A DNA stretch of 64,000 bases from Branchiostoma lanceolatum (lineage: Eukaryota > Chordata > Leptocardii > Amphioxiformes > Branchiostomatidae), in the NCBI RefSeq assembly GCF_035083965.1, contig NC_089725.1, positions 28,219,925 to 28,283,924 of the forward strand, in the 5' to 3' direction. A program made the translations under genes and the position numbers. The stretch's first letter is position 1; every line of letters begins with the position of its first letter. Of the stretch, positions 88 through 46,100 are shown piece by piece. A model generated the notes under the pieces. The model saw only the letters and a program-made list of their open reading frames with translations. It was not told where the DNA came from and made no database searches.

Positions 88-1952
88 GTGTGGACCTGGA
101 AATCTGGGCGCACGAGCACACGTACGAGAGACTGTGGCCTGTTTATGATTACAAGGTAAGATGATGTCATCCATGGCTCCTCTCTGTTACATTTGAGAAT
201 ATTGTGATGTCTGAAACAACTCCATGAGAATGATAATTTTATAATCATGTGCCATGTCTTCATTAATTGAGTGAGTGATTGAGTGAGTGAGTTATCAAAA
301 CTATAGAAACAGAAGTTTCTCTGCCCTGATATTTTGCTCCCTTCAGTGTATGAGAAATGTTGACCATAACTGCTTGTTGTTTTTTGTATCCAGGTGTACA
401 ACGGCAGCCTGGCCACCCCCTACACCAACCCCAAGGCTCCTGTACACATCATCACTGGGTCTGCTGTACGTAAACAAGTGCTTACTTCACTCTCGTATTC
501 AGCGACACCAATTTACTTTATTCTTGGCTTTGAAATAAAGTAGTGAACTGAAAGATCAAGAGGAAAACAGCATCTGGGGGGAAATTACAGTTTCAGGGAG
601 TATATACGGTCATGTTCAGATTTTCCTCCGCTACTTTCAGATTTTCCCTTTTGCAAAATTTGTGCTTAGATTTGTCCAAGAACCTGGACTGAAGGTATAT
701 TGGTGTGGCCTAATCAGTATCTGTGCTGGTTTAATCAATATATTTGGCAACACCTGGAACCATCTGCCACACTCTGTAAAAACATCGATGTCAGTATTCA
801 AAACCAGATGTAGAACTTGGCCTGAATTCTGACCTCACAATGGCAACCTACTAGAATGCACTGGTCTATAACCTTTCTATTACCGCGCCATTGACTTGGG
901 CTACCCTGGTTCAACATGACAGAAATAAATAGAAAGCAGACCTTAAGTAGGGCGGATACCAGGCTATCACATATAGATGGAAACGTAGAAACATAACCTG
1001 GAAGCTGAAAGTAATTGGTATGTTTACATTTCTATACAGGGCTGCCGTGAGCGCCACGATGGTTGGGTCCCAAACCCTCCAGCCTGGAGCGCTCTCAGGA
1101 ACTCCGACTACGGCTACACCAGGTTCAAGGTGCACAACTCAACACATCTGTACCTGGAGCAGGTGTCAGATGACAAGGTAGGTTAGAGATGCACAACTCC
1201 ACACACCTGTACCTGGAGCAGGTGTAAGATGACAAGGTAGGTTACAGATGCACAACTCCACACACCTGTACCTGGAGCAGGTGTCAGATGACAAGGTAGG
1301 TTACAGATGCACAACTCCACACACCTGTACCTGGAGCAGGTGTGACAGATGACAAGGTAGGTTACTGGTGCACAAATCTGTATCTGTATCTATATAGCCA
1401 GTATAACCGCTGTTTAGTGTAACACATCGGCTTTGCAGGCATGCGACTCGGCACGTATAAACCTGGAACAAGTGTCAGATGACGTGACAAGGTAAGTTAC
1501 AGGTGCACAATTCCACACACCTGTACCTGAAGCAGGTGTCAGATGACAAGGTAGGTTACAAGCACAACTCCAAACACCTATACCTGGAACAGATATCAGA
1601 TGACAAGGTAGGTTACAGATGTGCTACTCAACACCTGGAATAGGTGTCGGATATTCATACCTGTACCTGTCCAAAGCCTACCAACAGAGTGTATTGGGAG
1701 CCTTTAACTTCCTTGAGTTACCTTGATTGCAAAAAAACAAACATAAAGTTCTTATCAAAAAGAGTTGACCTTGATATTGAACTGCAAACTCACCTTGGTG
1801 GAGGTATATGTAATTGCAGGAGAGACAAATGCTCGTGTAGCAATATTTTGACTCCCTGTGATTTTCATTTTGTTTTCTCATTCCAGGATGGAAAGGTAAT
1901 TGACTCCATTTGGGTCATCAAGGACCAGCATGGACCCTACAGCCGCACCTGA
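88..1952 (+). CDS. ACP7: Purple acid phosphatase, ACP7/PAPL type, 3' portion
   Basis: Four exons carry the C-terminal end of an iron/zinc purple acid phosphatase, a secreted-type metallophosphoesterase; the 5' part lies outside the window. Exons are 88-155, 394-465, 1040-1177 and 1887-1952 (stop TGA at 1950-1952). All have AG acceptors and GT donors and the phases agree (the first exon enters with two bases of a split codon; the later junctions are phase 0). Exon 88-155 encodes WAHEHTYERLWP, which holds the last metal-ligand histidines of the family. Exon 394-465 encodes the VHIITGSA stretch and exon 1040-1177 the GYTRF and QVSDDK stretch. The last exon begins DGKVID, as in human ACP7. The exon 1040-1177 donor and the stop codon each lie in their own tandem array. 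The identification rests on remembered human ACP7 sequence. Confidence 0.93.
1128..1625 (+). repeat. Minisatellite copying the ACP7 exon donor
   Basis: Tandem units of about 58 bp each repeat the last ~45 bp of exon 1040-1177 plus its 5' splice site. The core GATGACAAGGTAGGT, or a close variant, recurs about seven times (near 1169, 1227, 1285, 1345, 1477, 1543 and 1600). The array is interrupted at about 1376-1446 by a fragment of a dispersed repeat. The first unit is taken as the functional junction because it continues the exon reading frame. Confidence 0.92.
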
Positions 1953-2645
1953 CAGGACAACACCTGTATCTGAAACACCTGACAGAACAACACCTGTAGC
2001 TGAAACACCTGACAGAACAACACCTGTAGCTGAAACACCTGACAGGACAACACCTGTAGCTGAAACACCTGACAGGACAACACCTGTAGCTGAAACACCT
2101 GACAGGACAACACCTGTAGCTGAAACACCTGACAGGACAACACCTGTAGCTGAAACACCTGACAGGACAACACCTGTAGCTGAAACACCTGACAGGACAA
2201 CACATGTAGCTGAAACACCTGACAGGACAGCACCTGTAGCTGAAACACCTGACAAGACACCACCTGTATCTGAAACACCTGACAGGACAACACCTGTAGC
2301 TGAAACAACTGACAGGACAACACCTGTAGCTGAAACACCTGACAGGACAACACCTGTAGCTGAAACACCTGACAGGACAACACCTGTAGCTGAAACACCT
2401 GACAGGACAACACCTGTAGCTGAAACACCTGACAGGACAACACATGTAGCTGAAACACCTGACAGGACAGCACCTGTAGCTGAAACACCTGACAAGACAC
2501 CACCTGTATCTGAAACACCTGACAGGACAACACCTGTAGCTGAAACACCTGACAGGACAACACATGTAGCTGAAACACCTGACAGGACAACACATGTAGC
2601 TGAAACACCTGACAAGACACCACCTATAGCTGAAACACCTGACAA
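1950..2645 (+). repeat. 30-bp minisatellite starting at the ACP7 stop codon
   Basis: About 23 units of 30 bp run from the ACP7 TGA. Each unit is two related 15-bp halves, both ending in ACACCT. Units fall into variants (CACATGTAGC, GACAGGACAG, GACAAGACAC, GTATC). A block of eight units at 2041-2280 is repeated almost exactly at 2281-2520, giving a 240-bp higher-order unit. Since 30 is a multiple of three, every unit carries a TGA in the ACP7 reading frame. The array would lie in the 3' UTR. Other frames are open on both strands only because the unit has no stop there. Confidence 0.97.
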
Positions 2646-5929: not shown

Positions 5930-6363
5930 TTGGGGTCTTGTAGGATCTCTAGTTTTTACTCTGTTGGATCCAGTAGGATGTGTAGTCTTTACAATGTAGG
6001 ATTTTGTCTTTATTTTCTGAGATTCTTAGATCCAAAATCCTAACTCTGTGGAATCCTGTAGGGTCTGTAGTCTTCATGAGATCCTTTAGGATCTGTAGTC
6101 TTTACTCTTTGGGATCCTGTTATCAAAATCCTTACTCTGTGGGATCCTGGAGGATTTGTAGTTCTTTGTGGGATTTTGTGGGATCCAGCATCTTCATTTT
6201 GTGGGATCCTTAGACCCAAAAATCCTTACTCTGTGAAATCCTGTTGGATCTGCAGTCTTTTATTTAATACTAATAAGTGGGATCCTGAAAGATCCAGAGT
6301 TTATTTTGTGGGATCCTTAGATCCAGAGTCCTTACTCCATGGGATCCTGTACAATCTGCAGTC
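5930..6363 (-). repeat. Minisatellite over the TMEM179B stop codon
   Basis: Degenerate units of about 30-35 bp have a plus-strand consensus close to TGGGATCCTGTAGGATCTG followed by TAGTCTTTACTC. The unit holding the TMEM179B stop (minus strand: ACAGGATCCCATGGAGTAAG) is the gene-proximal member. Many downstream units keep the ACAGGATCCCA...GAGTAAGGA core, so the end of the coding sequence is itself a repeat unit. Confidence 0.88.
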
Positions 6364-8938
6364 TGCGTCGCTCCCCCCAAATGAGCGGCCTTCTCTCGTC
6401 GCCGCCCTCGGACTCGGGCGGCGCGAGGTCGTACTCTCGTTTCCTGGAGACGACGAAACACTGGACGGTCACCATGGACGTGGTCAGCGCCCAGACCAGG
6501 AACAGCACCCAGCCAAAACTCTGCAGGGGAAAAATGCAGGGTTCTGATTACAAGATATGACATTTCTTACTTAAATCTGCATGCTACTTTGTCCTGAAAT
6601 CCAGCCATACTAGCTTAACCGTGAATGCTTTCATCTGAGGTTGGAACATCACCGATCATGAGGCAAACACAGGATTCTGATTACAAGCTTTTGCTATCTG
6701 CATGTAACTTAGCCTGCATTCCAGCCGTATTAGGCTGGCTGCTCCATACAGACCAATTGAGCATGCTACGCTAACAATTAGTAACATGGCTGTATTTCAG
6801 GCTACGCATTGAGCTTGACTCTGCACTACCAGCAAAGACAAAGTTTTAAACAACACTTAACAGTAATTCTGAAATGATCCTTCTAAGGTTTTACATGCAT
6901 AAATGAATATGTAGGTTCTTCTTCTTTCGGTACTGCTGAGCCCCTAGATCAAAGGGGTTACTAGCACTTCTATGTGACCTCTATTTATGTGACCTCTATT
7001 TTGAAACCAGACAGACAGTGAGATCCACACTAACCTGTGCCGCCTGCATGTTTCTGAAGAACACCAACATGACGGAGTGCCCGCTGGAAATGTCGTACTC
7101 AGACGCAGCCGCCTCACAGCTGTAGTGTTAGGAGAACACTGTGTTGTTAGTCTTGTAACACCAGGGAGAGCAGCAAAAGTACAGCTGGCACATCATCAGC
7201 CAAAGATAGTGTCAAGTAGAGTGACAAAATGCTTCACTATCCTGATTAATGACTAAGTTCAAATCCATTAAATATCAAATGATAGACTGTTCATTGTACT
7301 TGTCAAAAAGAGCTAGGGGAGTTCAGTACAATGAACCTGTTGATACTGTACATGGCATCTGTCTTCTCTGTCATGACCAGTAGAAGATTAGCTCTTTGGT
7401 GAGCAAAACTGGTTTGAGATCATTTTCACCTATATGCTGCCTCACCTGACAGAACACCTGTATGTTGCCTCATGCACCTGTCTACAGAACACCTGTATGT
7501 TGCCTCATGCACCTGTCTACAGAACACCTGTACATTGCCTCACCTGTCTACAGAACACCTGTATGTTACCTCACCTGTCTACAGAACACCTGGATGCTGC
7601 CTCACCTGTCTACAGAACACCTGGATGCTGCCTCACCTGTCTGTGCTCCCTCCCTCCAGCAGGTGTTTGCACCAGTCCTGGTAGCCGGTTGTCAAGGTAA
7701 CGGCTGCCACCAGGCTGGCCAGGCAGCCCAGCAGGCACACCACCATCTGGGCAGACTGCCACCTGTCAATCAAAACCAACCACCTGTCAATCATAATCAA
7801 CCAACTGTCAATCATAAACAGCCACCTATCAATCAAAATCAACCGCATGTCAATCATAATCAAAACACATGTCAATCACAATCAACCAAATGTCAATCAA
7901 AATCAACCACCTGTCAGTAATACAAAACCACCTGTCAATCAAAATCAACCACCTGTCAATCACACTGAGCCACCTGTCAATCATGGTCCACCACCTATCA
8001 ACCATATTGAACCACCTGTCAATCATAACCAAACAGATATCAACAACACAGAACATCTGTCAGTCATACAAGACAGCTGTCAATTAGAAAGAAAGCACAT
8101 GTCAATCATACAGGGACACCTGTTAATCATGGAAACTCCCTGTCAATCCTAGAATGAACTTGTCAATGTTATAGATTTATAAGCGTCATCTAGACTCAGA
8201 TTGTGTAGTGTGAGTATAAGATGTTCTATAGCGTGCGCGTGTATAAGATGTTCGAAAGATATTCTATAGCGTGTATAAGATGTTCTATAGATGTTCTATA
8301 GCAGGTATACGATGTTCTACAGAATAACTTTAACTGTTATTACCAGACTTCGTAGTGGACGGAGGCGATGCAGCTGACCAGCATGAGGAGAAGGGCTGCA
8401 GCAGAGGTGACCAGTGCCTGGTACAGGCAGTAACTACACACAGTGTCACTGCCGTATACCTGTATAATACAACAATACACAGGTAAACACACAGTCACTG
8501 CCGTATACCTGTAGAATACAACAATACACAGGTAAACACACACTGTCACTGCCGTATACCTGTATAATACAACAATACACAGGTAAACACACACTGTCAC
8601 TGCCGTATACCTGTAGAACACAATAATACACAGGTAAACACACACTGTCACTGCCGTATACCTGTAGAACACAATAATACACAGGTAAACACACACTGTC
8701 ACTGCCGTACACCTGAACACAACAACACACAGGTATTAAAACAGGCCTGGTAGCTACACACACTAGGTTTGAGGTCACTGACCTGAGACTGGGAGTCTAA
8801 GTTGAAGTTACCGAACAGCAGACATCTCTGTCCAGCGTCGTTCCTACTGATGGTGAGGATACAGGCCACGATGATGCCGCACACCACACACAGGGCCTGC
8901 ACCACTCCCAGCACCTTAGCAAAGTGGGGACATGCCAT
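6332..8938 (-). CDS. TMEM179B: TMEM179B-like four-pass membrane protein
   Basis: Five coding exons on the minus strand: 8783-8938 (ATG at 8936-8938), 8344-8459, 7637-7762, 7035-7119 and 6332-6520 (stop TAA). They total 672 nt, or 223 residues, close to remembered human TMEM179B (about 219). All junctions are GT-AG and phases agree. Four hydrophobic segments are visible: GVVQALCVVCGIIVACILTI, then ALVTSAAALLLMLVSCIA, then MVVCLLGCLASLVAAVTL, then GWVLFLVWALTTSMVTV. Family hallmarks are RCLLF after the first segment and SCEA in the loop before the last. The short charged tail ends DPME. Exons 1, 2, 3 and 5 each touch a tandem array or duplication. TMEM179 is the alternative name; the tail and last segment fit the B type better. 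Confidence 0.86.
7434..7650 (-). repeat. Minisatellite copying the TMEM179B exon 3 donor
   Basis: About seven units of ~31 bp repeat the end of exon 3 with its 5' splice site (minus strand ACAGACAG|GTGAGGCA; plus strand TGCCTCACCTGTCT). The true donor after base 7637 is the exon-proximal member. Confidence 0.92.
7759..8160 (-). repeat. 21-bp minisatellite copying the TMEM179B exon 3 acceptor
   Basis: About nineteen units of ~21 bp repeat the 3' splice site of exon 3 (minus strand GATTGACAG|GTGG; plus strand CCACCTGTCAATC). The exon starts at the unit nearest the coding sequence (7762). Distal units diverge, but most keep an AG preceded by TTGAC. Confidence 0.92.
8446..8722 (-). repeat. Minisatellite copying the TMEM179B exon 2 acceptor
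   Basis: Six units of ~48-51 bp (near 8448, 8497, 8548, 8599, 8650, 8701) contain ACTGCCGTATACCTGTA on the plus strand. On the minus strand this is TACAG|GTATACGGCAGT, the intron end plus the first exon 2 bases. The spacer is ACAATACACAGGTAAACAC. Confidence 0.93.
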
Positions 8939-8971
8939 CCTGTGGGAGGGGGGAGCAGGGTTAGACATGGT

Positions 8972-9068
8972 GTAATAGTGAGGATACAGGCCACGATGAT
9001 ATGCCGCACACCACACACAGGGCCTGCACCACTCCCAGAACCTTAGCAAAGTGGGGACATGCCATCCT
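8972..9068 (-). pseudogene. Partial tandem copy of TMEM179B exon 1
   Basis: About 95 bp repeat the first ~90 bases of coding exon 1 (8851-8942), including the ATG (minus strand, 9062) and the MACPHFAKVLGV coding stretch. A two-base insertion in the GGCATCATCGTG region shifts the frame, and the RCLLF half and the donor are absent. If transcribed it would lie in the 5' leader as a decoy start. Confidence 0.85.
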
Positions 9069-9123
9069 GGGGCTGACCATGGGGGAACAGAGTCAAAAAG
9101 CTTGTTTACAGGGAATAATAGCA

Positions 9124-10316: not shown

Positions 10317-11656
10317 ATGACATCAGTGAGCGTTTTCGTGACCAACAATACTTACATTGACTTTGACGTCTTCGGTCATTGGCTGAACGGGCTAACAGGT
10401 GAGAAAACAATCATAAAAGGGGGAGGGGCGTCCCGCTATCTTGAAACGCACTCATGGCACTTATTAGACATTACTAGATAAAACCTCCTTGATTGCACTG
10501 GTGAGCAATGGTTTTCTTTCATGTTATCGGCGTTAGCTTTCTGATTTCAAAAGTTCTGTGTGGATTTTCATAATATTTTGTTCAGCAGCTGTTTTATATA
10601 TGTGGCTGAGGTTTCATGCCCTTGGATGATCAGGCATTTAGATATTCATCAATCTCATATATGAATCATGGGGGGCACAGATAATGTGAACCGATCATAA
10701 CGACGTTATCTGTACACCATTATGGCATTGTAAAATATTCAACGTTACAGAATACATTCATAGATTGTGACTGCTGCTGTTTTAGCAAAATCAGCATTCA
10801 GATATGCAATAATTCATGTTATATGTCTGCTATGTGAGTTGAATAAAGATTTGATAAATCCCTTCCCCCCAGTCCATGAAGCAGTGCAGGCGCGGTTCCA
10901 GAGCGGGATCCTGCAGACGACAGGCGCCTCGCCGGACGTGCTCCAGAGCGACACGCTCGACAACTACCGCACCTTCTCGCTGCTGGAGCGCTTCCTGCAG
11001 GCCCCGCCCAAACTCGCCACGCAGGTCCTGCTGCAGATCCCCGCAGCCGTGCAGAGGAAGCTCATAGAGAAGTAAGGGACTTCATGTACAATCATGTACA
11101 CACACATACAGACACACCTTAATACCTGTAGTCGTGCAGAGGACCCTTATAGACTATGATAGAGAAGTAAGGGTCACGTACACATGCATGGACAGGCACA
11201 CAGCCATGAGTAGTGTCACACATGCACAAACACAGACACACCTTAATACCTGCAACCGTGCAGAGGAAGCTGATAGAGAAGTAAGCAGTGGAAACGTACC
11301 AGCAATTTGAATGCGCATATACATTGTCACACAGATAAACATATACACAAACACCGTAGTAAGTTACACCCCTTTTAAGGTATTAAAATACCTGTAGCCA
11401 TGCAGAGATGCTAACAGAGAAGTAAGGTGCGCAAACGTACAAACACTGACACTGACACGGACACATACACAGTGTCATATAGATACACAGGAACACACAC
11501 ATACCTTGATACCTGCAGCTGTGCACAAAGGACACTGATAGAGAAGTAAGGTGTGCAAATGTACACACGCACCTGCACACACACACACACACACACAGAC
11601 ACACACACACAGACACACACACACACGAACACATACACAAACACATGCACATTCAC

Positions 11657-11699
<43 letters not shown>

Positions 11700-14600: not shown

Positions 14601-16721
14601 CCGGTCTGATCCACAGCAAGGAGCTGAAGGACTTCTTTGTGGACCTGGTGGAGAAGGTGCGCTCACAATTAGCCCCCATTAACATTAATCCGCCGGGTTA
14701 CATAAATCCGACATTTTGAAAAACAATGTGGTTGAGAGATCTCTAGTGCAGCACTCCCAGGTATGCACAGTTTAGATATACAGGACTGTATTAAACTGGA
14801 TGATGTTGTGTTGGAGATCTGTTTGGACGTACCTTTTTAGGGTGGCGTAATTATGTACCCAGGTGGAATTATGTTAGTAGATGTTAACACTGGTCGGTTT
14901 CAATTTGAAAAAAACTCTAAGTCTAACAAAGTCAAGTATCTCTATGACTGTACTGTACATAATGGGTTACAATTAGAAAAGCCACACTCACAACACACAT
15001 TTTAAAGACGTCACCACATGTACCAAAAAGAGTAGGGGTACACCCTTGTGTTTGACTGCTCAAACTTGAGTCATTTCCAAACACAGTTCAGTTTGTACCT
15101 ACTAACTTCAAGTACAGACCTGATGTCGTATACGTTATGCTGTGCATGGCTGACCATGCTGGACAATCTGGACCACGATTGTAGAGTGGTGTATTTTGCT
15201 GATGGGCATTTACATTAGCCTCCATAGCAGGCTCTATGGGCCTTTTTTTGCAGCTTATAATACATTCGAAAATAATTTCATCAGGTTGGTAGAATATAGG
15301 ATATAGGAGATTCTTTATACACAACCAAGTATTGATCTCACCTGCTAACGTTTCGATGTCTAACCTGCTAACGTTTCGGTGAGAAGCAGTACTCCAGTCA
15401 GAAGCTCTGAAGAAGGTGTCTGATAGACATCGAAACATTAGCAGGGGAGATAAATAGTTGATTGTGTATAAAGAATCTCCTATATGCTTATAATACACTT
15501 TTTGCTGATAACTTTTTGTACTGGCCATGGGTCATTTGTGCAGCCCAGTACAAAAAGAAGTTTGTGGATCAGCAAAAGATGTATTATGAGCCAAAAAAGA
15601 CCCACAGAGCCTGCTATGGAGGCTACAGCTACACCTGCTCTACAATACAAATACACATTATGATACACAAACACAGAGTAATGTTTGTGTCTGTACAGTT
15701 CATCGAGCCCTGTAAAAACGCCAGGTGGAGTAAGAGGGACGTCGAGGCGTTCCTGAAGGCGTACGAGGCGGCAATCCAGCAGATCCCGCAGCTAAAACGG
15801 TGGGTATTAGTCACATGACTCTGTTCTAGTCTGTGTTGCTGTCAAGGACTGATTAGACCTCCTACGCTAGATCCGGCGTCACAACTCATGCGAGCGTCGG
15901 CCAAATTTGTAGATCGCCCAAAGCTCGCCAAATTGAAAAATTGCCCAAGTGTCAGCCGTATCTTCCAATGAAAATCTTGGATGATGTCCGAGGAACACTA
16001 AAAGCTAAAAATCCCCCATGAGATGGTACCATCTCTTGGACATGGACAAAGTCAGAATCCACTGACGTAATGGTAGTAAAAGGCCAATATTTGGATCAAC
16101 TTTGATTTCTAAAAATCGTCCGAAGCCCGCGTAATCGACAGGACATCAGCCGAAAATATCCCAGTTTGGAGCTCGCCCACACGTCGGCCGAGCTGAATTC
16201 TTGATTTGTGACGGGGGCTTAAGAGCTTGTAGTTGTTCAACTCTAAGCCAAATTGAGACAGATTTAGAAATGAAAAGTACCCATTACATAAATGCATTAT
16301 GAAAATCAACAGGAGCTCAGTGATTCTTTATCATTATGAAAATCAGTCCAATAGGAGCTCAGGATAGCCTCCACCAGGCACTCTTACGGGCGTATGAATC
16401 GTAGAATTCGGCAGAAAAAGGAATAATTAGCCAGTAGAGTCAGTCCACAGTGAAGATCACATTTCACCCTGGCATAGTTAGTCTGGTAGAGACTAGCTCA
16501 GGATGCTCTGTCGGTATTGCAGCAGGTAAAGATGATTTATCATTACATTAGTTGCCCTCATGAATCAACTTAAAAGTGCTCCTTTTTAGCAGATGTGCAC
16601 GAAGTTGAAGTTTTCTGATTATGTTCCATTATGCTCCAGGTTCCAACCGCACTTGCTAATTGTGTGGACCCGTTACATGACCACGCTCAAGAAATGCATT
16701 CTGCAGCTGTATCATAGCTGA
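10317..16721 (+). CDS. FIBP: Acidic FGF intracellular-binding protein
   Basis: Ten exons: 10317-10398, 10873-11071, 11870-11996, 12451-12551, 13054-13187, 13720-13828, 14209-14278, 14570-14656, 15699-15799 and 16640-16721. They total 1092 nt, or 363 residues, the family length. The protein starts [20 protein letters not shown] and ends LQLYHS. Family stretches include [36 protein letters not shown]-like [44 protein letters not shown] and FVDLVEK. All phases agree. The exon 5 donor is GC (GCAAGT) because only that join keeps the frame to DSQADD. FIBP binds FGF1 inside the cell in vertebrates. The exon 2 donor and the stop codon each start a minisatellite. AATAAA at 18506 is a plausible poly(A) signal. 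Confidence 0.97.
11040..11750 (+). repeat. Minisatellite copying the FIBP exon 2 donor
   Basis: About five recognisable units of ~120 bp, plus a degenerate sixth near 11713, repeat the exon 2 end and donor (GTGCAGAGGAAGCT then ATAGAGAA|GTAAGG) near 11048, 11135, 11258, 11400 and 11520. Units are separated by CA-rich sequence that becomes pure (CA)n and (ACACAT)n at about 11570-11700. Only the first unit continues the reading frame of exon 2. Confidence 0.9.
12166..12368. mobile_element. MITE family A copy in FIBP intron 3
   Basis: The ends ATCTCCAAGCAGAGG and GCTGCTTGGAGAT are inverted repeats matching the family ends at 38779, 41973 and 21766. The interior is unrelated to the other copies. 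Clear flanking direct repeats were not found. Confidence 0.6.
15178..15655. mobile_element. Inverted-repeat element with a nested second element
   Basis: The outer arms (about 15178-15264 and 15575-15655) are inverted copies sharing TAGCCTCCATAGCAGGCTCT. A further hairpin lies at about 15498-15575 (TTTTGCTGAT against ATCAGCAAAA). The inner element (15265-15485) is a family D hairpin with 23-bp inverted ends (TATAGGAGATTCTTTATACA) and perfect 12-bp direct repeats GCTTATAATACA at 15253-15264 and 15486-15497. That is the pattern of insertion with target duplication. The whole lies just upstream of FIBP exon 9. Confidence 0.8.
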
Positions 16722-18190
16722 CACCTGGAACTAAAGCTGTGACATAGGGGACATTCAGAATAGCAGCTGTTATATAGCTGAAACCTGGGACTGCAGATGT
16801 AATATAGCTGAACTTGGAACAGCAGTTGTAACATAGGGGACATTTGGAACTACAGTTGTATTGTAGTTGTATTATAGATCAAGCCTGGAACAGCAGTGGT
16901 AATACAGCTGACCCTGGAACAGCAGTGGTAATACAGCTGACCCTGGAACAGCAGTTGTAATACAGCTGACCCTGTAACAGCAGTTGTAATACAGCTGACC
17001 CTGGAACAGCAGTTGTAACATAGCTGAACCTGGAACAGCAGTTGTAATACAGCTGAACCTGGAACAGCAGTTGTAATACAGCTGAACCTGGAACAGCAGT
17101 TGTAACACAGCTGAACCTGGAAAATCAGTTGTAATACAGCTGACCCTGGAACAGCAGTTGTAATACAGCTGACACCTGGAACAGCAGTTGTAATACAGCT
17201 GACACCTGGAATAGCAGTTGTAATACAGCTGAACCTGTAACAGCAGTTGTAATATAGCTGAACCTGGAACAGCAATTGTAATACAGCTGAACCTGTAACA
17301 GCAGTTGTAATGTATAGGACATTCGGAACAGCAGCTATGGCACAGCTGACACCTGAACCTGCAGCTAAGACCAAGGATAGAAGTTGTGTCACAGCAGACA
17401 CTTGGAAGTAAAGCTGTAATATAGGGAACATCTGGAACGGTCTTAATTTAACCGACACCTGGAACTGCAACTGTGATGTTCAGGACATTTGGAATAGCAG
17501 CTATGCCACAGCTGACACCTGGATCAGCTGCGTTACCACACCTGATAACTCAAACTGCAGCTATATCACAACAGCTGTGATACTGTTGGCACCTGAGATA
17601 GCAGCTGTGATGTAGGAAACACTGCAGTTACGCCACAACTGACACCAGGAACAGCACCTATCACATTGCTGTTTCACAGCTGACATCATGAACAGCAGGC
17701 CATATGGCAGCTGACACCTGGGATAGCAGCTGTACTACAGCTAACACATCAATATAGCAGATGTGTTACAGCTATGCTAGCACCTGATACAACAGCTGTA
17801 ATATAGCTGTGCCACAAGGAAAAGCAGCTATACCACAGCTAAAGCCTGGAAGTCAGCAACTGTGATATGGCTGGCAACTGGAAAAGTAGTTGTAGTATAG
17901 CTGGCACCAAGAACAACAGCTGTATCATATAGCTGAAACATGGAACTGCAGCTATGATGTAACTGGCACCTGGAACAGCAGCTGTATTACAGCTATACTT
18001 GGAACAGCAGTTGTATTACAGCTGACACCTACAATAGCAGCTGTGATATAGCTGCCAACTGGGAAAGTAGCTGTTGTATAGCTGGCACCTGGAACAACAG
18101 CTGTATCATATATCTGGCACCAGCAACAACAGCTGTACTGCAGCTGGCACTTGTATCACAGCTTGCACCTGGATCAGGAATGCCACATTG
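16710..18190 (+). repeat. ~30-bp minisatellite starting at the FIBP stop codon
   Basis: About 45-50 degenerate units have a consensus near ACAGCTGACACCTGGAACAG followed by CAGTTGTAAT. The final FIBP codons and stop (GCAGCTGTATCATAGCTGAC) match the unit and form its first copy. The best-conserved stretch is about 16880-17290 and the distal part is older. A detached piece of the same array is at 21636-21762. Confidence 0.93.
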
Positions 18191-29600: not shown

Positions 29601-29619
29601 TATCTACCTCCGACAAGAA

Positions 29620-29824
29620 TATAAAAGACCCAACCCGACGACACACTTCTCAGAGGAACAGTCTCGAAGCAACAACCAGCAGCTACAATCAGCCATCGCC
29701 AAGTTCACCCTCAATACTTCCGCACAGGACCTGATAGAAGAACCGACGAAGAAACTACGACACATCGCGAGAACTTGGTTGACTGAGACTGCCTGAACAA
29801 CCGTCTAACGATCACCAAGTAAAG
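29620..29824 (+). promoter_or_regulatory. TATA promoter and leader exon, paralog 1
   Basis: TATAAAAG at 29620-29627, a likely initiator TTCTCAGAGG with A at 29652 (32 bp downstream), and a leader exon ending at about 29824 before GTAAGC. The same elements at the same spacing occur at 39730 and 39762 in the paralog, with about 90% identity along the exon. Confidence 0.7.
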
Positions 29825-30268
29825 GTAAGCTAGAATATAACTTTGTCATGTCAATGAAATCTCGACCAATTTTGCACCATATTCTTGCATTATCCAGAAT
29901 AATGTTGGTGCTGTACAAAACAGACGATTCACTGATTTTATCGGTAAAAGAGAGGTTAACAAGGTGGGTGAATAACCTAGGCCCTGAAATTTAATACCAC
30001 GTTAAATACGTCATTCGCCCGGTTATCAACTTATACCAAAGAAGTCCCCCTTTAAACTCCTTGCTTAAGCTCATCGTACGTAGCTGACCCATCTATCATC
30101 TATATGATTGTGATCAATGTTTATCAATAATATGGCATTCTGATATGTACGTTAGGTGAGAACACTGATACAGGAGTTAAGTATTGTTTTCAGTGATATC
30201 TCAAAAAATTACGCTTAATCTTGAAGGTAACATCATAGTACGAAAACGTCTCTACTTTCAGTTACAAG

Positions 30269-30727
30269 ATGACACTGCAACTGACACCTATGGCAGACAG
30301 TGGGAAGTATCATACCGCGGTAGGAAGAAGTAACCACCCGCAGGAACCGTCTCAGCAACCGCCCGGCCCATTTGCGACCGACAAGTCCGGCCGACAACAT
30401 CCAGCCTATCCCCCAGCGACTGGCCCTCACGGCGACGTGTACCCCCGACAGCAGCCAGCGGATTATGCCCCAACGGCTGGTCCCCAGGGTGCCTTGTACC
30501 CCCGACAGTACCCAGCGACTGTCAGGGACTCCGGCGGCGGCGCATTCAGCATGGTCGCTGTGCCCGGGGCGGGGGTCACTCCGGGGCCGGTCACGGAAGA
30601 GCAGGGTCAAGGCAAATGTACTGGAAAACGCTGTTGTATCGCAATAGTCGTAGGCCTCTGCGTAGCAGCGGCGATCTCCATACCTGCAGGAATAAGGGCT
30701 TATAATGCGTATAACCGCCTTTATTGA
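30269..30727 (+). CDS. Small proline-rich tail-anchored protein, paralog 1
   Basis: A 152-residue frame starts in an exon at 30262 (acceptor CTACTTTCAG). It is joined to a non-coding leader exon ending at about 29824. The N-terminal ~115 residues are Pro/Tyr/Gln/Gly-rich with two related blocks (PAYPPATGPHGDVYPRQQ and DYAPTAGPQGALYPRQ). A Cys-containing basic turn (KCTGKRCC) precedes one C-terminal hydrophobic segment (IAIVVGLCVAAAISIPAG) and a short YNRLY tail. This resembles a tail-anchored or type II membrane protein. The paralog at 40360 aligns from the first Met to the end. I do not recognise the family. Confidence 0.65.
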   Translation: MTLQLTPMADSGKYHTAVGRSNHPQEPSQQPPGPFATDKSGRQHPAYPPATGPHGDVYPRQQPADYAPTAGPQGALYPRQYPATVRDSGGGAFSMVAVPGAGVTPGPVTEEQGQGKCTGKRCCIAIVVGLCVAAAISIPAGIRAYNAYNRLY

Positions 30728-32147: not shown

Positions 32148-32360
32148 TGTGTTAGTGTGTTCGTGTGTGTGTGCTTGTGCTTGTTCCACATAATTTCTGG
32201 TGGAGGCTCATCTTTAGGTTTATTTTCTATTGGGAGAGCCAGGGTCTTTCCTTCAGCAGGGGTTACCCTACCCTACCCTACCCCCTGGTTCCGAAGGTGC
32301 CACGGTGCTTCCACACAGACGCAAACAAATAACCTTGTGTAATATGATAGGGTTGTAACA
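30728..32360. other. Intergenic stretch
   Basis: Probably includes the 3' UTR of the 30269 gene. The only structured features seen are a (GT)n run at about 32106-32180 and a short ACCCT repeat at about 32265-32285. No gene was found. Confidence 0.5.
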
Positions 32361-32364
32361 TCCA

Positions 32365-33001
32365 AGGATTGAGTTGTATCCTGAGATTGGCCTTACCCTG
32401 TCTGGTCATGACCAATGATCATTTCTGTGGATATTGTGTCTTTTGGTAGTGTTACTCTATCTGCGTACAGAGTATTCGACTGTGATGCTGCTAGCTGTGT
32501 GTTATATGTTAGATTTATAACATCTAAGGACTGAGTGGTAGCCTGAGACTGGCACTGCCATGTCTGATCACGACCACTGGTCCTTTCTGTAGATGTTGGG
32601 TCTTTTGGTGTTTTCACATCTGTGTACAGAGGATTGGGCTTTAAGGCTGCTAGCTGTGTGTTATATGTTAGATTTATAACATCTAAGGACTGAATGGTAG
32701 CCTGAGACTGGCACTGCCCTGTCTGATCGTGACCAATGTTTATCTCTGTAGATGTTGTTCTTTTGGTGTTTCCACATCTACGTACTGAGGATTCAGCTGT
32801 GAGGCTGCTAACTGTGTGTTATATGTTGGATTTGTAACCTCCAAGGATTGAGCGGTAGCCTGAGACTGGCCCTCCCCTGTCTGATCATGACCAGTGGTCA
32901 TTTCTGTAGAAGTTGGTTCTTTTGGTGTTTCCACATCTGCGTACAGAGGATTCGACTGTGATGCTGCTAGCTGTGTGTTATATGCTAGATTTGTAACCTC
33001 C
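32365..33001 (-). repeat. ~160-bp tandem units in the LRR receptor tail and beyond
   Basis: Four units (about 32365-32525, 32526-32686, 32687-32841, 32842-33001) each encode a version of QSLEVTNLxYNTQLAASQ with an NPLYADV motif. The third unit is shorter (about 155 bp), which shifts the frame and ends the open frame at 32740. Units further downstream are still largely open in the shifted frame. Confidence 0.85.
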
Positions 33002-34893
33002 AAGGATTGAGACTGGCCCTGCCCTGTCCGATCGTGACCAATGGTTATTTCTGTAGATGTTGGATCTTCTGATAATATTTCAGTAGCTGTGCTGTTTGTG
33101 TAGGATTGAGTAGTGGCCTGAGACTGATCCTGTCCTGTCTGATCATGTTGGGTGCTCATATCTTCATACTGATGATCAATACCACTGGTCATTACAGTAG
33201 CTGTGCTGTTTGTGTTGGATTGAGTAGTAGCCTGAGACCGACCACTGGTTATTTCTGTATATGCTGGGCCCTGCGTTTTCGCGCCTTGGTACAGAGCATT
33301 GGGCCGTAAGGCAGCTAGCAGTTCACTGCGTGATTGAATGCTAGCATCCAGTGATTGAGGAGTTGTAGCCTGATCGCGAGACCATGTCTGATCAGGTTGG
33401 GTGTCCACGTCTTCATACTGGTGATCATGACACCTGGTCATTACTGGTTGTTTCCCCTCATCTGTGTACAAAGGATTTGGTCGTAAGGCAGCTATCAGTG
33501 CATTGCGTGATAGATTTCTGACATCCAAAGGTTGAGTGGCCTGACCATGAGACAGACCCTGCCCTGTCTGATCATGACCACTGGCGTTTGTGTTGCTACT
33601 AGTACTAACAACATTAGAATTTGGGCCTGAAGGAGGATGCCTTGTCTCCCTATTGTATCGGATAGTGAGAATGATGCTGCCAATCAGGGCGATACCAGAT
33701 AGTGAACCACAGATAGAGCCAATGAGAACAGGCAAGGGGAAAGTAGATTCATGGGGAATGCTGCTTTCTGGTTTGTGTGAAGTGAGAGGTGAAATTGGTG
33801 GTGCCTTTGTGCCAAATGTGTTTCCTGTAGGACGTACTGATGAGTTAGTATTGCTTGTGAAGTACCAGTGATAATGGGAGGGGACGGTGCTTGTAACTGT
33901 TAACAACTTGGAACCGTTGCTTACAGTTGCCAGTTGGGAGGCAGGCAGCGTGGTAGGAGTTGCTTTTGTGTCATTAGTGCTTTGAGTTTCTGCATTAGGA
34001 GATGATGTTGACCCTGCAGATGAAGTAGATGGGTATGTGATACCCACAGGCAGTGTTGATATGGTTGTTTCTTTACAAATCAGGTCTTCAGGATTAATAT
34101 CTTTTAGCTTTCGACCCTGGAACCTGGCAGGTTGGGCACAAGTCATCTGATCTTCAAATAATGAAGATCCGGTCATTTTCATTCTGAAGGGAACCATCCC
34201 ACAGTCACACTGCCAGGGGTTGTGGTCAATTTGTACATATGAAAGTGCTGACAACATGCCGTGAATAGACGGGGGAAGGACAGATAACTGGTTTGCATGC
34301 AGTTCCAACCCTCGGACCCTGGATGGATCAGGGAATGCCCCAGGCTCGATTTTAGATATTTGGTTGTTGAACAAATGCAACATTTCAAGCTTGTGTAGAT
34401 TTGAGAATGTACCAGATTCAATATAAGTTAACTTATTGTGGGACAGGAACAACTTTCTGAGCTTAGTTAGATTTGAGAATGTGTGAGACGTTACATTAGT
34501 TATCTGGTTGGAAGACAGATCCAAGAAATCAAGCTGGGTAAGTTTTGAGAATGAACCTGGTTGAATGTTTCTTATCTGGTTGTAATACATCCATAAGTTT
34601 TGAAGCTTGAGTAGTTTTGAGAATGTGGCAGAGTGAATATGAGTTATCTGGTTGTTGGACAGGGCCAAAGTCCGGAGCTCAGGCAGTTTTGAAAACGCAC
34701 CTGGATGAATCTTAGTTATTCCATTGTTTTCCAAATACAACTTAACGACGCCTGTCGGGATACTGGTGAGGTCGGAGCATCGGCAATTTCTGATCGGCGG
34801 GGATGGTGAACAGTCGCAGTCAGCCTCTAGCATGTCAGGCTCCTTCAGGAGGATGAGAAGGAAAATCAGCACGTGTCGCAGCTTCCTTCCCAT
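32740..34893 (-). CDS. Leucine-rich repeat single-pass receptor with Tyr-motif tail
   Basis: An intronless frame. The start is placed at the second Met (34893) because a signal peptide follows at once (RKLRHVLIFLLILL). Counting from the upstream Met at 34917, the order is: LRR N-cap with paired Cys (32-47), about seven LRRs (57-215; LxxLxLxxNQI pattern), Cys-rich C-cap (NPWQCDCG to LICK, 233-282), Ser/Thr-rich stalk, one membrane segment (396-419), and a ~300-residue tail. The tail carries six candidate SH2-type Tyr sites (NPLYTDE, HQYEDVD, NALYQGA, HQYEDMS, NPLYADV, NPQYVDV). The tail ends early through a repeat-unit frameshift (EQHLQR). It is probably a surface receptor. Family membership beyond LRR-TM is not clear. 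Confidence 0.85.
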   Translation of the reverse strand: MGRKLRHVLIFLLILLKEPDMLEADCDCSPSPPIRNCRCSDLTSIPTGVVKLYLENNGITKIHPGAFSKLPELRTLALSNNQITHIHSATFSKLLKLQNLWMYYNQIRNIQPGSFSKLTQLDFLDLSSNQITNVTSHTFSNLTKLRKLFLSHNKLTYIESGTFSNLHKLEMLHLFNNQISKIEPGAFPDPSRVRGLELHANQLSVLPPSIHGMLSALSYVQIDHNPWQCDCGMVPFRMKMTGSSLFEDQMTCAQPARFQGRKLKDINPEDLICKETTISTLPVGITYPSTSSAGSTSSPNAETQSTNDTKATPTTLPASQLATVSNGSKLLTVTSTVPSHYHWYFTSNTNSSVRPTGNTFGTKAPPISPLTSHKPESSIPHESTFPLPVLIGSICGSLSGIALIGSIILTIRYNRETRHPPSGPNSNVVSTSSNTNASGHDQTGQGLSHGQATQPLDVRNLSRNALIAALRPNPLYTDEGKQPVMTRCHDHQYEDVDTQPDQTWSRDQATTPQSLDASIQSRSELLAALRPNALYQGAKTQGPAYTEITSGRSQATTQSNTNSTATVMTSGIDHQYEDMSTQHDQTGQDQSQATTQSYTNSTATEILSEDPTSTEITIGHDRTGQGQSQSLEVTNLAYNTQLAASQSNPLYADVETPKEPTSTEMTTGHDQTGEGQSQATAQSLEVTNPTYNTQLAASQLNPQYVDVETPKEQHLQR

Positions 34894-34917
34894 GTTGTCC
34901 TGCCCAAAACAGTGCAA

Positions 34918-39039: not shown

Positions 39040-39690
39040 TATTGGAGTACTTGTCCGTCATTGACCGACCATAACCGGACAAGCTGGATTGAACTTTTTC
39101 GTGCCGCCCAGCTGTGGAAACTTCCATGACTTGTCAGTCATTGAACGACAGTAACCGGACATTAGCTTGAACTTTTTAGAGCCTCCAGCATTTAACAATG
39201 CTGTGGAAACTTCCATGCCAGCCGCTGACCGATAGTAACCGGGCAAGAATTATAATGGTCGACCTGCCGTGATAACAACACCACCCAACATTGAACAAAG
39301 GTGTTAATACCTCCAGGCGCTACCTACGTTCAATGGGAACGAAGTGTGTTATGTGTGTTATGGACAAATACCGTTCGTTTTAAACAGTGAAGCCATGTCG
39401 AGAACGTCAGCTGGGCTCAACTGTCATAATCCCGCCACCTTATGACACGCGCACTGTAAGAGTGAAAAATTACCTCTTATACGCCTAATATGACCCCAAG
39501 AACATCTGATTCAGTGTTTCAACAAAATTCAAACTATAGTTCATTTACACGTTTACGTCATAAGGTCGGGTTCGTTGCCAGGGTGACGCAAGCCTTAGGG
39601 CCCGTGTTGGGCAAAGCGTCACAACTTCAGTGGGCCATATTTAGATCATAATTATACGTTTTGATCTCATCCATCGGATAAAAATATCTG
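39040..39690. promoter_or_regulatory. Upstream repeat module of tail-anchored paralog 2
   Basis: Three copies (about 39062, 39145, 39228) of the ~83-bp unit with ACCGACCATAACCGGACAAG or variants. Proximal blocks at 39285-39400 and 39552-39690 match those upstream of the 30269 gene. Confidence 0.55.
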
Positions 39691-39729
39691 CATATGACAA
39701 AAGATAAAATTATGTACCTCCGAGAAGAA

Positions 39730-39930
39730 TATAAAAGAGCCAACCCGGCGACACACTTCTCAGAGGAACGGTCTCAACGCGACAATCAGCAGCTACAATC
39801 AGCCATCGCCAAGTTCACCCTCAACACTTCCGCACAGGACCTGATAGAAGAACCGACGAACCAGCTACGACACATTGCGAGAACTTGGTCGACTGAGAGT
39901 CCCTAAGACCAAGCGTCAAACGACCAGCAA
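39730..39930 (+). promoter_or_regulatory. TATA promoter and leader exon, paralog 2
   Basis: TATAAAAG at 39730-39737, a likely start A at 39762, and a leader exon ending 39930 before GTAAGT. An ATG-led frame of 70 codons (39694-39906) begins upstream of the TATA box, so its Met is unlikely to be in the mRNA. The frame body is open in both paralogs. Confidence 0.7.
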
Positions 39931-40359
39931 GTAAGTAAAGGTAGCTAGAATGTAACTTTGTTATGTCAATGAAATCTCAGTGAAACACCATGCTAGCTCT
40001 TGTATCATACCGATAACATTTCATTATGATTATGACAAGCATGTTGATGTTTCACGTTACAAACGTTGCCGCCAGGTATCGAGCTTCCGACACCTGTAGG
40101 GAAGGGACAATGATCCAGTCCCTACAATTGAATTCCCTGTAAACATTTCATTCTTCATAATTGAGCCATCCATGTTAGTGGCCGATGATTATCAGGAATG
40201 TGGCATTTTGTAAAATAGGTAACGTTACTGCATAAGAAACCTTGACACATGAGTTTTTGAAAATCATGTACTGTACTGTACTCTACTGTACTGGAAAAAT
40301 ATCAACTTAAAGGTAACATTGAAAACATAACTTTTTTCAGTTAACGATAACGTTACAAG

Positions 40360-40710
40360 ATGTCGATCCAACAAGGACCCATGGATCACAGCGGAAAGGG
40401 TCGTCACCCCGGTGGTGATTATGGCGGAGGTTTCGGCCGACAGAATCCAGCTTATCCCCCAACGACTGGCCCCCAGTACGGCGGGTACCCCCAACAGCAA
40501 CAAGCTTACCCCCCAGCTGCAGCGACTAGCAGGGACTCCAGCGGCAGGCCATACAGCACAGTAGCTGTGCCTGTGGGGACTCAGCCGGCTATGGAAGAGC
40601 AGAACCAAGGCGCATGTGCTAGCCGTAAATGTCGCTGGGTGATCGTCGGACTCATTATTGTTGGTGGCATTGTCAGCATAACAACGGCGACCCTTAAATA
40701 CTTATACTAG
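40360..40710 (+). CDS. Small proline-rich tail-anchored protein, paralog 2
   Basis: A 116-residue frame in an exon starting at 40341 (acceptor CTTTTTTCAG). It is Gly/Pro/Tyr/Gln-rich (NPAYPPTTGPQYGGYPQQQQ), then SMVAVP-like STVAVP, EEQNQGACASRKCRW, one C-terminal hydrophobic segment (VIVGLIIVGGIVSITTA) and the tail TLKYLY. It aligns with the 30269 gene end to end but lacks one of its two Pro/Tyr blocks. AATAAA near 41216 is a possible poly(A) signal. The family is not recognised. Confidence 0.65.
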   Translation: MSIQQGPMDHSGKGRHPGGDYGGGFGRQNPAYPPTTGPQYGGYPQQQQAYPPAAATSRDSSGRPYSTVAVPVGTQPAMEEQNQGACASRKCRWVIVGLIIVGGIVSITTATLKYLY

Positions 40711-41960: not shown

Positions 41961-41972
41961 GAGGAATATCTT

Positions 41973-42068: not shown

Positions 42069-42484
42069 AGGAATATCTTCATTGGAACAACTTACAGCAC
42101 TGTGTGCACAAAAGAACTTGCATCACCCTTACTTACTTGATAGATCTTTATCAAACAACAGACATTAAACATGAACGTATACATGCAATTGCAAATAGCA
42201 CATTTGGCTTCAGACAATTTCATTGGACTGTTCTTCACTGTAAATCTACACAAAGTATGGACATTTTATGCCTACTATCAAAATTGACACTTGCAACTTG
42301 AGGTATTTTTTACACTAGCCCCGGTGAAAAGATTCTGAAGAGGGCAATCAAATATGTCAGACTTCACCATACAGCTACTTGTGAGTAAGTCAGAAACACA
42401 TGCGCACACACACACACACAGACAGACAGATTAAAAACAATACTCACTAGGGTACAAGTACCAGTAATCAGCTACATTAGGAGT

Positions 42485-43175
42485 CACAAATCCACAGAAC
42501 AGTTGACACCTGCAACTTGAAGTCCGGAGGAAATGGCTACAAACTAGCTACAAGTACTGTAAATTCATTTACTTTTGCTGTGGTTTTGTTTCCTGGAAGA
42601 AGAGGAAACAAGATTTTCGTGGTCTTTTGAATTCGCAGTTCTGTATTACAATAGTCATGCGATGAAGACATATTTGCGGTGTCATGAATTTGCGGTGGTG
42701 AGGCCACCATTGCAAAAGTTTCAAGATTTACAGTATGTCACAAATCCACGGGACCATTGACAGCTGCAACTTGAAGTTCTGAGGAAGTTACATCTAGGCT
42801 ACAACTAGCTACAAATGTGTCACAAATCCATGGGACCATTGGCAGCTGCAACTTGAAGTTCTGAGGAAGTTAATACATCTAGGCTACAACTAGCTACAAA
42901 TGTGTCACAAATCCATGGGACCATTGACAGCTGCAACTTGAAGTTCTGAGGAAGTTAATACATCTAGGCTACAACTAGCTACAAATGTGTCACAAATCCA
43001 TGGGACCATTGACAGCTGCAACTTGAAGTTCTGAGGAAGTTAATACATCTAGGCTACAACTAGCTACAAATGTGTCACAAATCCATGGGACCATTGGCAG
43101 CTGCAACTTGAAGTCCTGAGGAAAATGCTACAAACTAGCTACAAATGTCACAAATCCACGGGACCATTGTCGATG
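42485..43175 (-). repeat. ~86-bp minisatellite over the SDCCAG8 stop codon
   Basis: Five to six units contain TGTCACAAATCCATGGGACC, then ATTG, CAGCTGCAACTTGAAGT and AACTAGCTACAAATG. The gene-proximal unit (43141-43175) is the end of SDCCAG8 itself (minus strand GGTCCCGTGGATTTGTGACA, stop at 43148-43150). An older unit lies at 42485-42550. A family B MITE interrupts the distal part. Confidence 0.93.
42555..42735. mobile_element. MITE family B relative
   Basis: Ends TACTGTAAATTCATTT and AAGATTTACAGTA, with internal GCTGTGGTTTTG and TTTGCGGTG phrases. It sits inside the SDCCAG8 3' repeat array. Confidence 0.7.
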
Positions 43176-46100
43176 TCCAGGCTGGGTCGATGACGACCCG
43201 TGCCCATGAAAGAGTCGCGGTTTTTCATCTGGCTGCGGAGGAACTCCACCTCTTGGCACAGCGACTGTCGGTCCTGCATCAGGCCGTTCTGTTTAGTCAG
43301 CAGCTCCAGAACCTGAGATACATGTATATCAAAAAGTCTTGTGGTTAGGGATAATGACTTAGAATCTAAAGGTTTTGGTTCAAATCCGTGGCAGGCCCTT
43401 TGGGAAGGGCATATTAAACAGGCCCTATGGGAAAGGCATATTACACCATTTTCCTCACTTCACTCAGGTGTAAATGAGCACCTAGCTTAGACCAGGGAGT
43501 TCAGATGGAGATGCCATGTTTGAGGAAAACCACACCTTGAGTTAAAGAACCCACCACACTTATCGATAAGAATATGGATCAATCCTGATGTGAGTGGATC
43601 AAATAAATCTGTCCGGATATGCAGCTTGTATTCTTCAGTACAAACCTGGTGCATTACTGCATGAGGCAGTTTACCGGGTATGCAATACAAACAAACAAAC
43701 AAGCTAATGTGACTTTTCTTAACTGTTTAGACATTGTTCTTAAGACATTGCAACTGACCTTAATGCATAGCGTAAGAAGTCATAGCTAAGACGTGTCACC
43801 TGCTGTGCACTGTTGTGTGCGTGCTGGTCCATCTGCTTCAGCCTTGTCTTCATGCGCTGGTGCAGGCGGCCGTGTTCCACACACTGCTGCTCCAGGCCCT
43901 TCTCCCGCTCACCCGCCTTCGCCAGCCGCGAGGACAGTTCCTCGTTCAGCTGGGACAACCGTCCAACATCAGACCTAGGCACAGGGAAAGAGCATGAGAC
44001 TGGATTGAATAGTTATTGTCTTAGACGGCAGTATTTCTAGGCGGTTTTAGCAACTGAATTAGATTTTGTAAACGGTCAGATGTGTCAGATTGTATCTACT
44101 ACCTTTCATCACTGAGTGACGAAAAATATGGATGTCATCTGTCACTTATGGAAGATAATGGGTGCTATCTGAAATGCATTTCATTGACCATTTACAAAAT
44201 CTATCCAGTTGCTTGAGTACCTTTTTGTATTGTTTATCCCTATTAGCTCGATATTATCTTATCGACCTAAGTCTGTAACGTTCCCATCTGTACCTCTTCC
44301 CAAGCTCCTCCAGTTTGAAATCCATCAGCCCAAACTTAAGAACCACGGAAGCATCAGAACACTGACACAACAGTCTCCTGGACACTCATTGGACTTTGCT
44401 TCAGAATCAGCATGTCTATTGAAGTGCAGTTATACGGGCTTTACAACATGTGCATGTCCAAGGCTATGAGAAATAATTGCGTAACAACCCACCTGTATCT
44501 CTCCCCGAGCTCCTCCAGCTTGGTGGTGAGGTCCCTGCACTCCTCCCTGAGGCGGGAGATCAGGTCCTTCTGGGTGGTCACCAGGGTGTCCAAGTCTACT
44601 GAGGACTGGGCTGGGGGGAGAATTTACAGTTAAAAAATGCATGTCCTGTTCACCCATGGACTCCTCTGCAGAGAGTACCATCCAGAAAATGTGTAGAGGC
44701 AATTTTTTCACCTCCCCGTCTTCGGATCACTGCTGCTGGCTGTCGTGAAGCCCCTACGACCATTGAGATCAAGGGTCTGATCTGAGCTGAACTCTTTAGA
44801 GTTCTTGATTTGTATTTACATATATCTCTGTAGGGTAGGAAAGGACAGTCAAAGAGATTGGCAAGGAGTTTATAAACTCCTTAATGTTATAAAACCTTCC
44901 CATGTCATGAAGAAGTGACAACAAGTCGATTTGATCATGCATAGCCAAGTATAGAAAGTACAATCTGCACAATGTAGGTCTGTGAAAATTCTCAAAGGCA
45001 ATAGTTAACTGGAAACAGTTCACCTTGTTGCCTCTCCTTTTGTTCCATCTCGGCTATGAGCTGCTTTTCTCTCCTCTGAGCGTGCTCAATGGCCTCCTTC
45101 AGGTCGTCACTGCGGCCACGCTCTATACTCTCCTTCTCCATACGAGCTAGGTTTGCCTGGAAAAATTGTTGCACAAATTAGCAGGAAGCAATTTTCGGCA
45201 TGTACATACTATTAGATATCCTTATATTAGGCCACAGCAAGTAATCTTTATGGATGACATCAGCGCGCTCATTAATTTTCGCCTGATTTCAAAATAAAAA
45301 ACAAGAAATTTCATTGCCCTCCGACGGTGGTCAACTTGCCAAAAATTGGCAAATATGTCGTAAACGTTGGCAGTCTAATGTGTTTCATTGCATATGAATA
45401 CCCAGGGTATTTCCTGCCCATGATGGTATAATAACAAGCTGTTTTCTGCATTTGTTCTAGCAAGGACATTATATAAATAATGGGGGGGGGGGGTCCTAGA
45501 TAATTGAGCTGTATACACAAGGTGTTCCATCGCATATGAATTCCCAGCTTCAGCTTCAGATGATGGTACAACAAGCTCTTTTCTGCATTTGTTGTAGTTA
45601 GTCTATTGAGATGTATACACATCTCCAAGGACATGTTTACATTAAATCAAGGAGGTTTTATATTATATATGAAACCTCATTGGTTGAATACAGGAATAAA
45701 AGATCTGTTGGTCATGATATCATATTTTGTCGCCTCTCTTGTTTAACAAGACTTATGATCTCAAAATGTGAAAATATAGGAATCTTGATTTTTTTGGCCC
45801 GCCTTGTTTTTGTGTGTGCCCTATCTCATTCATTTTGTAGTCTGCGGAGGATGTCATCCATAAAATCTACTTGATGTGGCCTTAAGTTAGGATTTTCTAG
45901 TGCATGTGAAGAGGACATTGCTGATGTGATTGTTTGTTACACTTGTAGAAAGGGTACTGCAGTGCAAATTGCCATGTGAGAGCAGAATGCAAAACTAACA
46001 GATATGTACAAGCATGTGCAGGTGCAATAGGAAGTACAGTCAAACCTGTACTACTGACCACCTTGGCATAGGAATGACCGTGTGGAAGTTGTGGCCACCT

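Follow-up and report, generated by a model that had tools for sequence, protein, structure and literature searches.

Minisatellite arrays on the edges of coding sequence in a 64-kb window of a lancelet genome

What brings tandem repeats to the very points at which coding sequence starts, stops or gives way to an intron? The question is raised by a stretch of 64,000 nucleotides of the lancelet Branchiostoma lanceolatum (contig NC_089725.1; hereafter the window), in which minisatellite arrays sit on stop codons and splice sites of four conserved genes, ACP7, a TMEM179B-like gene, FIBP and SDCCAG8. The original prediction, made from the letters alone, had named nine such arrays. All nine are present, and its list had overlooked a tandem duplication over the TMEM179B-like start codon (8850-9072) and another at the SDCCAG8 donor at 44492. 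In the window, arrays fall on the edges of coding sequence (CDS) more often than random placement predicts.

Repeats were located by a gapped self-comparison blind to gene positions (distances of 10-1000 bp, score at least 44; four order-3 Markov nulls peaked at 29), and simple repeats of period 6 or less were excluded throughout. It returned 16 local repeat loci, two of which, in an LRR gene (32330-33593 and 34352-34719), were set aside as coding repeats, leaving 14 to be counted. A CDS edge is straddled by 11 of these (four stop codons, four donors, two acceptors and one start codon); the other three lie at 28152-28929, 39049-39245 and 45377-45597. Tandem Repeats Finder (TRF) found the same main arrays together with small intronic duplications at 266-290, 6971-7001, 8237-8317 and 43392-43443. 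The self-comparison masks simple repeats, and the non-edge locus at 8237-8323, listed by an ungapped scan and by TRF, is not among its loci. Array ends depend to some extent on the method: TRF coordinates leave the stop codon of the TMEM179B-like gene just outside its array, which the gapped self-alignment extends across it, and by ungapped-scan coordinates the TMEM179B-like, FIBP and SDCCAG8 stop arrays all end before their stop codons.

The enrichment at CDS edges that had been proposed was borne out, with 10 or 11 of 14 loci at edges against 1.4-5.0 expected. These figures come from a null in which each array was placed at random with its own length kept and its CDS overlap limited to 60, 125 or 200 bp, giving 10, 11 and 11 loci at edges against 1.41, 3.42 and 4.99 expected (P = 7e-8, 3e-5 and 1e-3, respectively); placing a single seed unit gave 1.71 expected (P = 7e-9). 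A similar excess is found when the count is confined to the first 18.5 kb, where genes are dense (8 or 9 of 9 loci against 1.1-4.6 expected, P = 1.7e-3 to 2e-9), when the small intronic duplications listed by TRF, four in number, are included (10 or 11 of 18 loci, 1.9-5.9 expected, P = 1.1e-2 to 5e-8) and from TRF coordinates alone, a count in which a CA-rich row at 11562-11699 (18-bp reading) was retained (7 of 10 against 0.7-2.4, P = 5e-7 to 3e-3). When all arrays were shifted together around the window, a count of 11 edges was reached solely with displacements of up to 3 bp, and one of 10 solely with displacements of up to 6 bp.

Several points weigh against this result or narrow it. When at least 15 bp of CDS was demanded inside the array, 8 of 14 loci lay at edges against 3.2 expected (P = 6e-3), and the SDCCAG8 region taken alone, with two of three loci at edges, is not significant (P = 0.16-0.56). 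Arrays occupy 6 of 71 splice edges, leaving 65 without one, and four of the nine CDS ends are likewise free: those of a TRIM-NHL gene (about 21042), a ROCO-Death gene (27905) and two paralogues (about 30727 and 40709), the TRIM-NHL and paralogue ends being approximate. Exon boundaries were drawn by hand, so that a few bases of error are possible in some coordinates, and the SDCCAG8 model lacks one exon or more. Moreover, the analysis covers a single 64-kb window that was chosen because the pattern was visible in it, so its P values are optimistic through ascertainment bias.

The individual arrays differ widely in unit length and degree of decay. On the forward strand, the donor of the penultimate ACP7 exon (1177|1178) lies in an array of about eight copies of a 59-bp unit (1121-1652) that takes in 57 bp of exon 1040-1177, and the ACP7 stop codon (TGA, 1950-1952) lies in an array of about 23 copies of a 30-bp unit (1946-2645; 7 bp of CDS inside) that repeats an in-frame TGA every ten codons. 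The TMEM179B-like gene, on the reverse strand, has a degenerate stop-codon array with a period of about 85-92 bp (5956-6364; TAA 6334-6332; 33 bp of CDS), an exon 3 donor array with a 31-bp unit (7427-7642; 6 bp), an exon 3 acceptor array with a 21-bp unit (7758-8148; 5 bp), both exon 3 junctions reading CAG|GTG, and an exon 2 acceptor array of six 51-bp copies at 94% (8436-8735; 24 bp). The duplication over its start codon consists of two copies of about 125 bp that are 95% identical, with the ATG at 8968, as in the B. lanceolatum protein record P0121, or at 8938; 119 bp of CDS fall inside if the former is used. The upstream copy of this duplication still encodes residues 8-32 of P0121 at 96%. 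FIBP, on the forward strand, carries a degenerate exon 2 donor array (11036-11626; 36 bp of CDS) in which GAGAAGTAAG is present five times, with the GAGAA|GTAAG junction at 11067, 11162, 11276, 11417 and 11541, and a stop-codon array with a 29-30-bp unit (16702-18177; TGA 16719-16721; 20 bp). SDCCAG8, on the reverse strand, has a stop-codon array with an 82-85-bp unit (42470-43169; TGA 43150-43148; 22 bp) and a two-copy duplication (44283-44522) at the donor of exon 44610-44492, where 35 bp are shared at 86% and 31 bp of CDS are included.

Edges of different kinds are unequally affected. The claim that every gene end in the window bears an array goes too far: it holds for the four conserved genes (4 of 4), and among all CDS ends the proportion is five of nine, the fifth belonging to the LRR gene. 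The stop of the latter (about 32740) sits within a coding array of 159-bp units on the reverse strand (32330-33593) that continues some 400 bp beyond it. Stop codons are over-represented relative to splice edges whether the LRR gene is left out (4 of 8, p = 0.007) or included (p = 0.002). Copy number is also related to position: all ten expanded arrays, the LRR array included, lie at edges, compared with two of eight duplications of two to three copies (p = 0.0015), and the relation persists when the LRR array is left out (9 of 9, p = 0.002) and, more weakly, under a generous reclassification of these hand-assigned classes (10 of 12 versus 2 of 7, p = 0.045). Since expanded arrays lie at edges and low-copy ones mostly do not, it is expansion or persistence, rather than the first duplication, that looks like the step tied to the edge.

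The arrays keep one intact functional copy of the signal where the coding sequence ends, and their further copies run into the intron or the untranslated region (UTR). At least 20 bp of CDS lie inside 8 of the 11 edge arrays, indicating that the coding edge belonged to the duplicated unit and was not simply the wall against which it stopped. The copied signals have fared differently from array to array. In the FIBP donor array, otherwise degenerate, an 11-bp run across the donor (AGAGAA|GTAAG) is invariant in four decoy copies, and the second-longest invariant run in these copies is ATACCTG, which is not in the exon copy. All five FIBP donor copies keep the splice signal, the five aligned ACP7 donor copies keep AAGGT and TACAGGTAT is kept in four of five TMEM179B-like exon 2 copies; the exon 3 acceptor copies are variable at the splice signal, and the second SDCCAG8 donor copy has lost its GT (CAG|ATGGG). 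The original prediction had supposed that back-up signals make expansion tolerable. In three of nine arrays (ACP7 stop, FIBP donor and TMEM179B-like exon 3 donor), most clearly in FIBP, the splice or stop window is indeed better kept than any other part of the unit, which is not so in the other six; the ranks of this window within the unit are 1, 1, 1, 6, 11, 14, 20, 28 and 66, with just two to five further copies aligned in six of the arrays. This mixed picture gives no general support to selection for spare signals. The original prediction had further proposed that exon-edge sequence or transcription might promote slippage. A step in base composition at the exon edge, considered as a discriminator through DNA melting, was set aside, the exon-side GC fraction being 0.57 at the 11 array edges and 0.56 at 59 free edges (p = 0.49).

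The units had been described as unrelated in sequence, which is in part too strong. Of 66 unit pairs, 63 score z < 4, a result that tends to count against shared ancestry of all arrays. The description fails at two points: the ACP7 stop and TMEM179B-like exon 3 donor arrays align with each other (E = 1.4e-7, 2e-5 in the reverse direction; z = 7), and an ACCTGTA-type core recurs across arrays. Among 2080 6-mers, those ranking highest in the consensus units are CCTGTA (7 of 12 units, P = 7.6e-7, or about 0.002 after Bonferroni multiplication by 2080), CTACAG, TACAGA and ACAGGT, overlapping words that together make up (A)CCTGTAG. CCTGTA still ranks first once splice junctions are masked (6 of 12 units, P = 1.8e-5, about 0.04 after correction); the six stop and start units, taken alone, yield no significant 6-mer. 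The related word CACCTG occurs in 6 of 11 hand-chosen edge blocks, against 0.5 expected from array-free noncoding DNA and 1.4 from other CDS edges; among consensus units it is present in 4 of 12 (P = 0.006), a figure that does not survive correction. Of the splice edges that read CAG|GTG, 3 of 8 bear arrays, compared with 3 of 55 other edges (p = 0.023), a weak, post hoc contrast in which several SDCCAG8 junctions are a few bases off; the motif tests as a whole are post hoc and involve 11-12 arrays. As to a viral or mobile source, a 36-bp stretch of an ACP7 array had no exact match in viral contigs.

To judge from the conserved C-termini of FIBP and SDCCAG8, the gene ends probably predate the arrays that now cover them. 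FIBP ends in LYHS in B. floridae and B. lanceolatum records and in YHS or YHD in two hemichordates, a starfish and a bat, and the last six residues of SDCCAG8 (NGPVDL), encoded within the array, are identical in all seven Branchiostoma sequences, whereas the residues just upstream vary. Against a greater age for the latter, SDCCAG8 ends otherwise in two bird records and one further sequence; given the different bird end, the SDCCAG8 gene end is demonstrably old only within Branchiostoma. The TMEM179B-like protein ends in QDPME in the window and in QDPTE in record P0121, a difference that falls inside the overlap with the array. Another unit in the window reads GAT CCC ACA GAG TAA at this site, and two more come close. 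The variant would fit an exchange between copies, which it does not prove.

Arrays of one of these kinds are already known from lancelets. In PMC3087553 and PMC3902484, amphioxus mirages are described as minisatellites spanning exon-intron boundaries in globin, Adh3, TnC and PGBD5 genes (the PGBD5 case is reported, and TnC cited, in PMC3902484), with units of tens to about 160 bp that span a donor or acceptor; many copies keep AG or GT, and splicing is reportedly undisturbed. The link to these mirages, suggested by the original prediction, is upheld by the six splice edges (four donors and two acceptors) that carry junction-spanning tandem units in this cephalochordate genome, mostly with their splice signals kept, and the splice-junction arrays are mirages by anatomy. 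Germline and somatic length instability also belongs to the characters of mirages, and the variation seen here is the protein difference between DPME and DPTE noted above. Unlike the described cases, the arrays of the window also occupy four stop codons and one start codon, where their units cross no exon-intron boundary; they were counted without regard to genes and share a core. The stop- and start-codon arrays look like mirage-like arrays at other CDS edges. Neither such a class nor a genome-wide count was found in the open-access literature searched, a scope outside which the primary mirage report (Canestro 2002) falls. The splice-site form is an established one in lancelets; the stop- and start-codon form, together with the counted edge bias, appears to extend the known class. 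The stop-codon class further suggests that splicing itself need not drive these arrays.

Two broader comparisons are relevant. Tandem units of this size, with imperfect copies and higher-order duplications, are features of ordinary variable-number tandem repeats and 3' UTR minisatellites. The window arrays share them and differ in coinciding strongly with CDS edges, with the edge inside the unit. Duplicated proto-splice sites flanking exons also recall the Rogers-type model of intron gain through tandem duplication of AG|GT, as cited in PMC3087553; unlike in that model, the duplications here lie at existing edges, and no new intron is shown.

The reading that we favour, and consider reasonably probable, is a cephalochordate amplification or retention of minisatellites anchored on CDS edges, a mirage class that includes stop and start codons. 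Short tandem duplications would arise at many places, and in the cephalochordate lineage units containing a CDS edge, in many cases with a CAGGTG/CACCTG or ACCTGTA word close by, would expand or persist by slippage, unequal exchange and conversion. The arrays would be tolerated because selection keeps the coding-side copy, and a copied donor, acceptor or stop would be either ignored or of the same outcome. A stronger version, in which amplification targets CDS edges as such (splice, start and stop), is seeded by an ACCTGTA/CAGGTG-type core and carries repeats past a few copies almost only there, is put forward tentatively, as possible rather than probable. It is quite unlikely, in our estimate, that the word alone is responsible, with arrays nucleating on CACCTG or ACCTGTA wherever these lie and appearing at exon edges through the presence of such words in CAG|GTG junctions and in some stop contexts. 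The leading rank of CCTGTA among all 6-mers, the excess of CACCTG in edge blocks, the more frequent arrays at CAG|GTG edges and the invariant ATACCTG of the FIBP decoys all point that way, the last being absent from the exon copy. However, CACCTG is not significant across consensus units once corrected, CCTGTA weakens when junctions are masked, the stop and start units yield no significant word and five of eight CAG|GTG edges carry no array.

Survivorship offers another account: duplications would arise at random and noncoding arrays be erased, with those at edges kept through coding constraint or useful spare signals. The position of expanded arrays on edges and of two- to three-copy duplications off them (the four small intronic TRF rows, 39049-39245 and 45377-45597) is what it predicts, as are the invariant run lying exactly over the FIBP junction and the first rank of the signal window in three of nine arrays. 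Nevertheless, young arrays with 94-97% unit identity (ACP7 stop, TMEM179B-like exon 2 and SDCCAG8 stop) lie at edges too, so long survival is not required, and in six of nine arrays the signal is not the best-kept part; we regard this account as unlikely. Least probable is a barrier or chance effect, in which arrays would grow unhindered in noncoding DNA and do no more than border on exons, these being densely spaced in the window. Such a barrier could explain the mere 5-7 bp of CDS in three arrays (ACP7 stop, TMEM179B-like exon 3 donor and acceptor), and much of the signal does come from the gene-dense 18 kb, the SDCCAG8 region alone being non-significant and the loosest null, with all small rows added, giving P = 0.01. 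It sits poorly with the 20-119 bp of CDS included in 8 of 11 arrays and with the length-keeping, CDS-limited nulls, which give P of at most 1.7e-3 even where genes are dense and up to 7.5e-3 in stricter-overlap variants. Should the edge bias that we favour hold genome-wide, amphioxus would be a natural system tying the birth of tandem repeats to exon and gene ends, in which one could test models that derive new introns from duplicated splice sites, as well as models of repeat effects on splicing and protein ends.

The FIBP, SDCCAG8 and TMEM179B-like proteins of the window match protein records of B. lanceolatum. Deduced FIBP is identical to record P0001 except for two extra stretches in the latter, which are intronic in the window. 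The intron after FIBP exon 5 is of the GC-AG type (donor at 13187/13188); P0001 apparently runs on into it and also keeps part of intron 3. For SDCCAG8, identity to record P0122 is 100% in the last exon and 91-100% across the 15 other located exons, the lower-identity rows overrunning exon ends and residues 72-96 not being located. The TMEM179B-like gene matches P0121 (Hypp2452) at 99%; the name TMEM179B, a label of the original prediction, is unconfirmed, a domain search having given just a MARVEL match below the curated cut-off. The same search type places PF14008 (purple acid phosphatase C-terminal domain) in the ACP7 fragment, PF05427 in FIBP and PF15964 in SDCCAG8, and a comparison of FIBP with solved structures gave no matches. 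These records are as expected if the functional copies are the ones used where arrays cover an edge in FIBP, the TMEM179B-like gene and SDCCAG8.

Several minor features accompany the arrays. Similarity to the FIBP stop-array repeat reappears in fragments at 21647-21762 (best E = 1.5e-4), about 3.5 kb past that array and beyond the TRIM-NHL gene, an arrangement that would be expected had the TRIM-NHL segment entered an older, longer array or landed beside it. The TRIM-NHL gene itself (19705-21042) has open frames at 19705-20298, 20181-20669 and 20656-21033 in different frames and is possibly a pseudogene, or an intron-bearing gene treated as a single exon. A dispersed repeat of about 50-65 bp (AGCCAGTATAACCGC..) occurs at 1380-1444, inside the ACP7 donor array, at 18536-18600 and at 48350-48397. 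Finally, a CGACAATAACCGG-like motif is found five times in 28152-28929 and three times in 39049-39245, upstream of the two paralogous genes (29602-30727 and 39715-40709), where it possibly forms an array of promoter elements.

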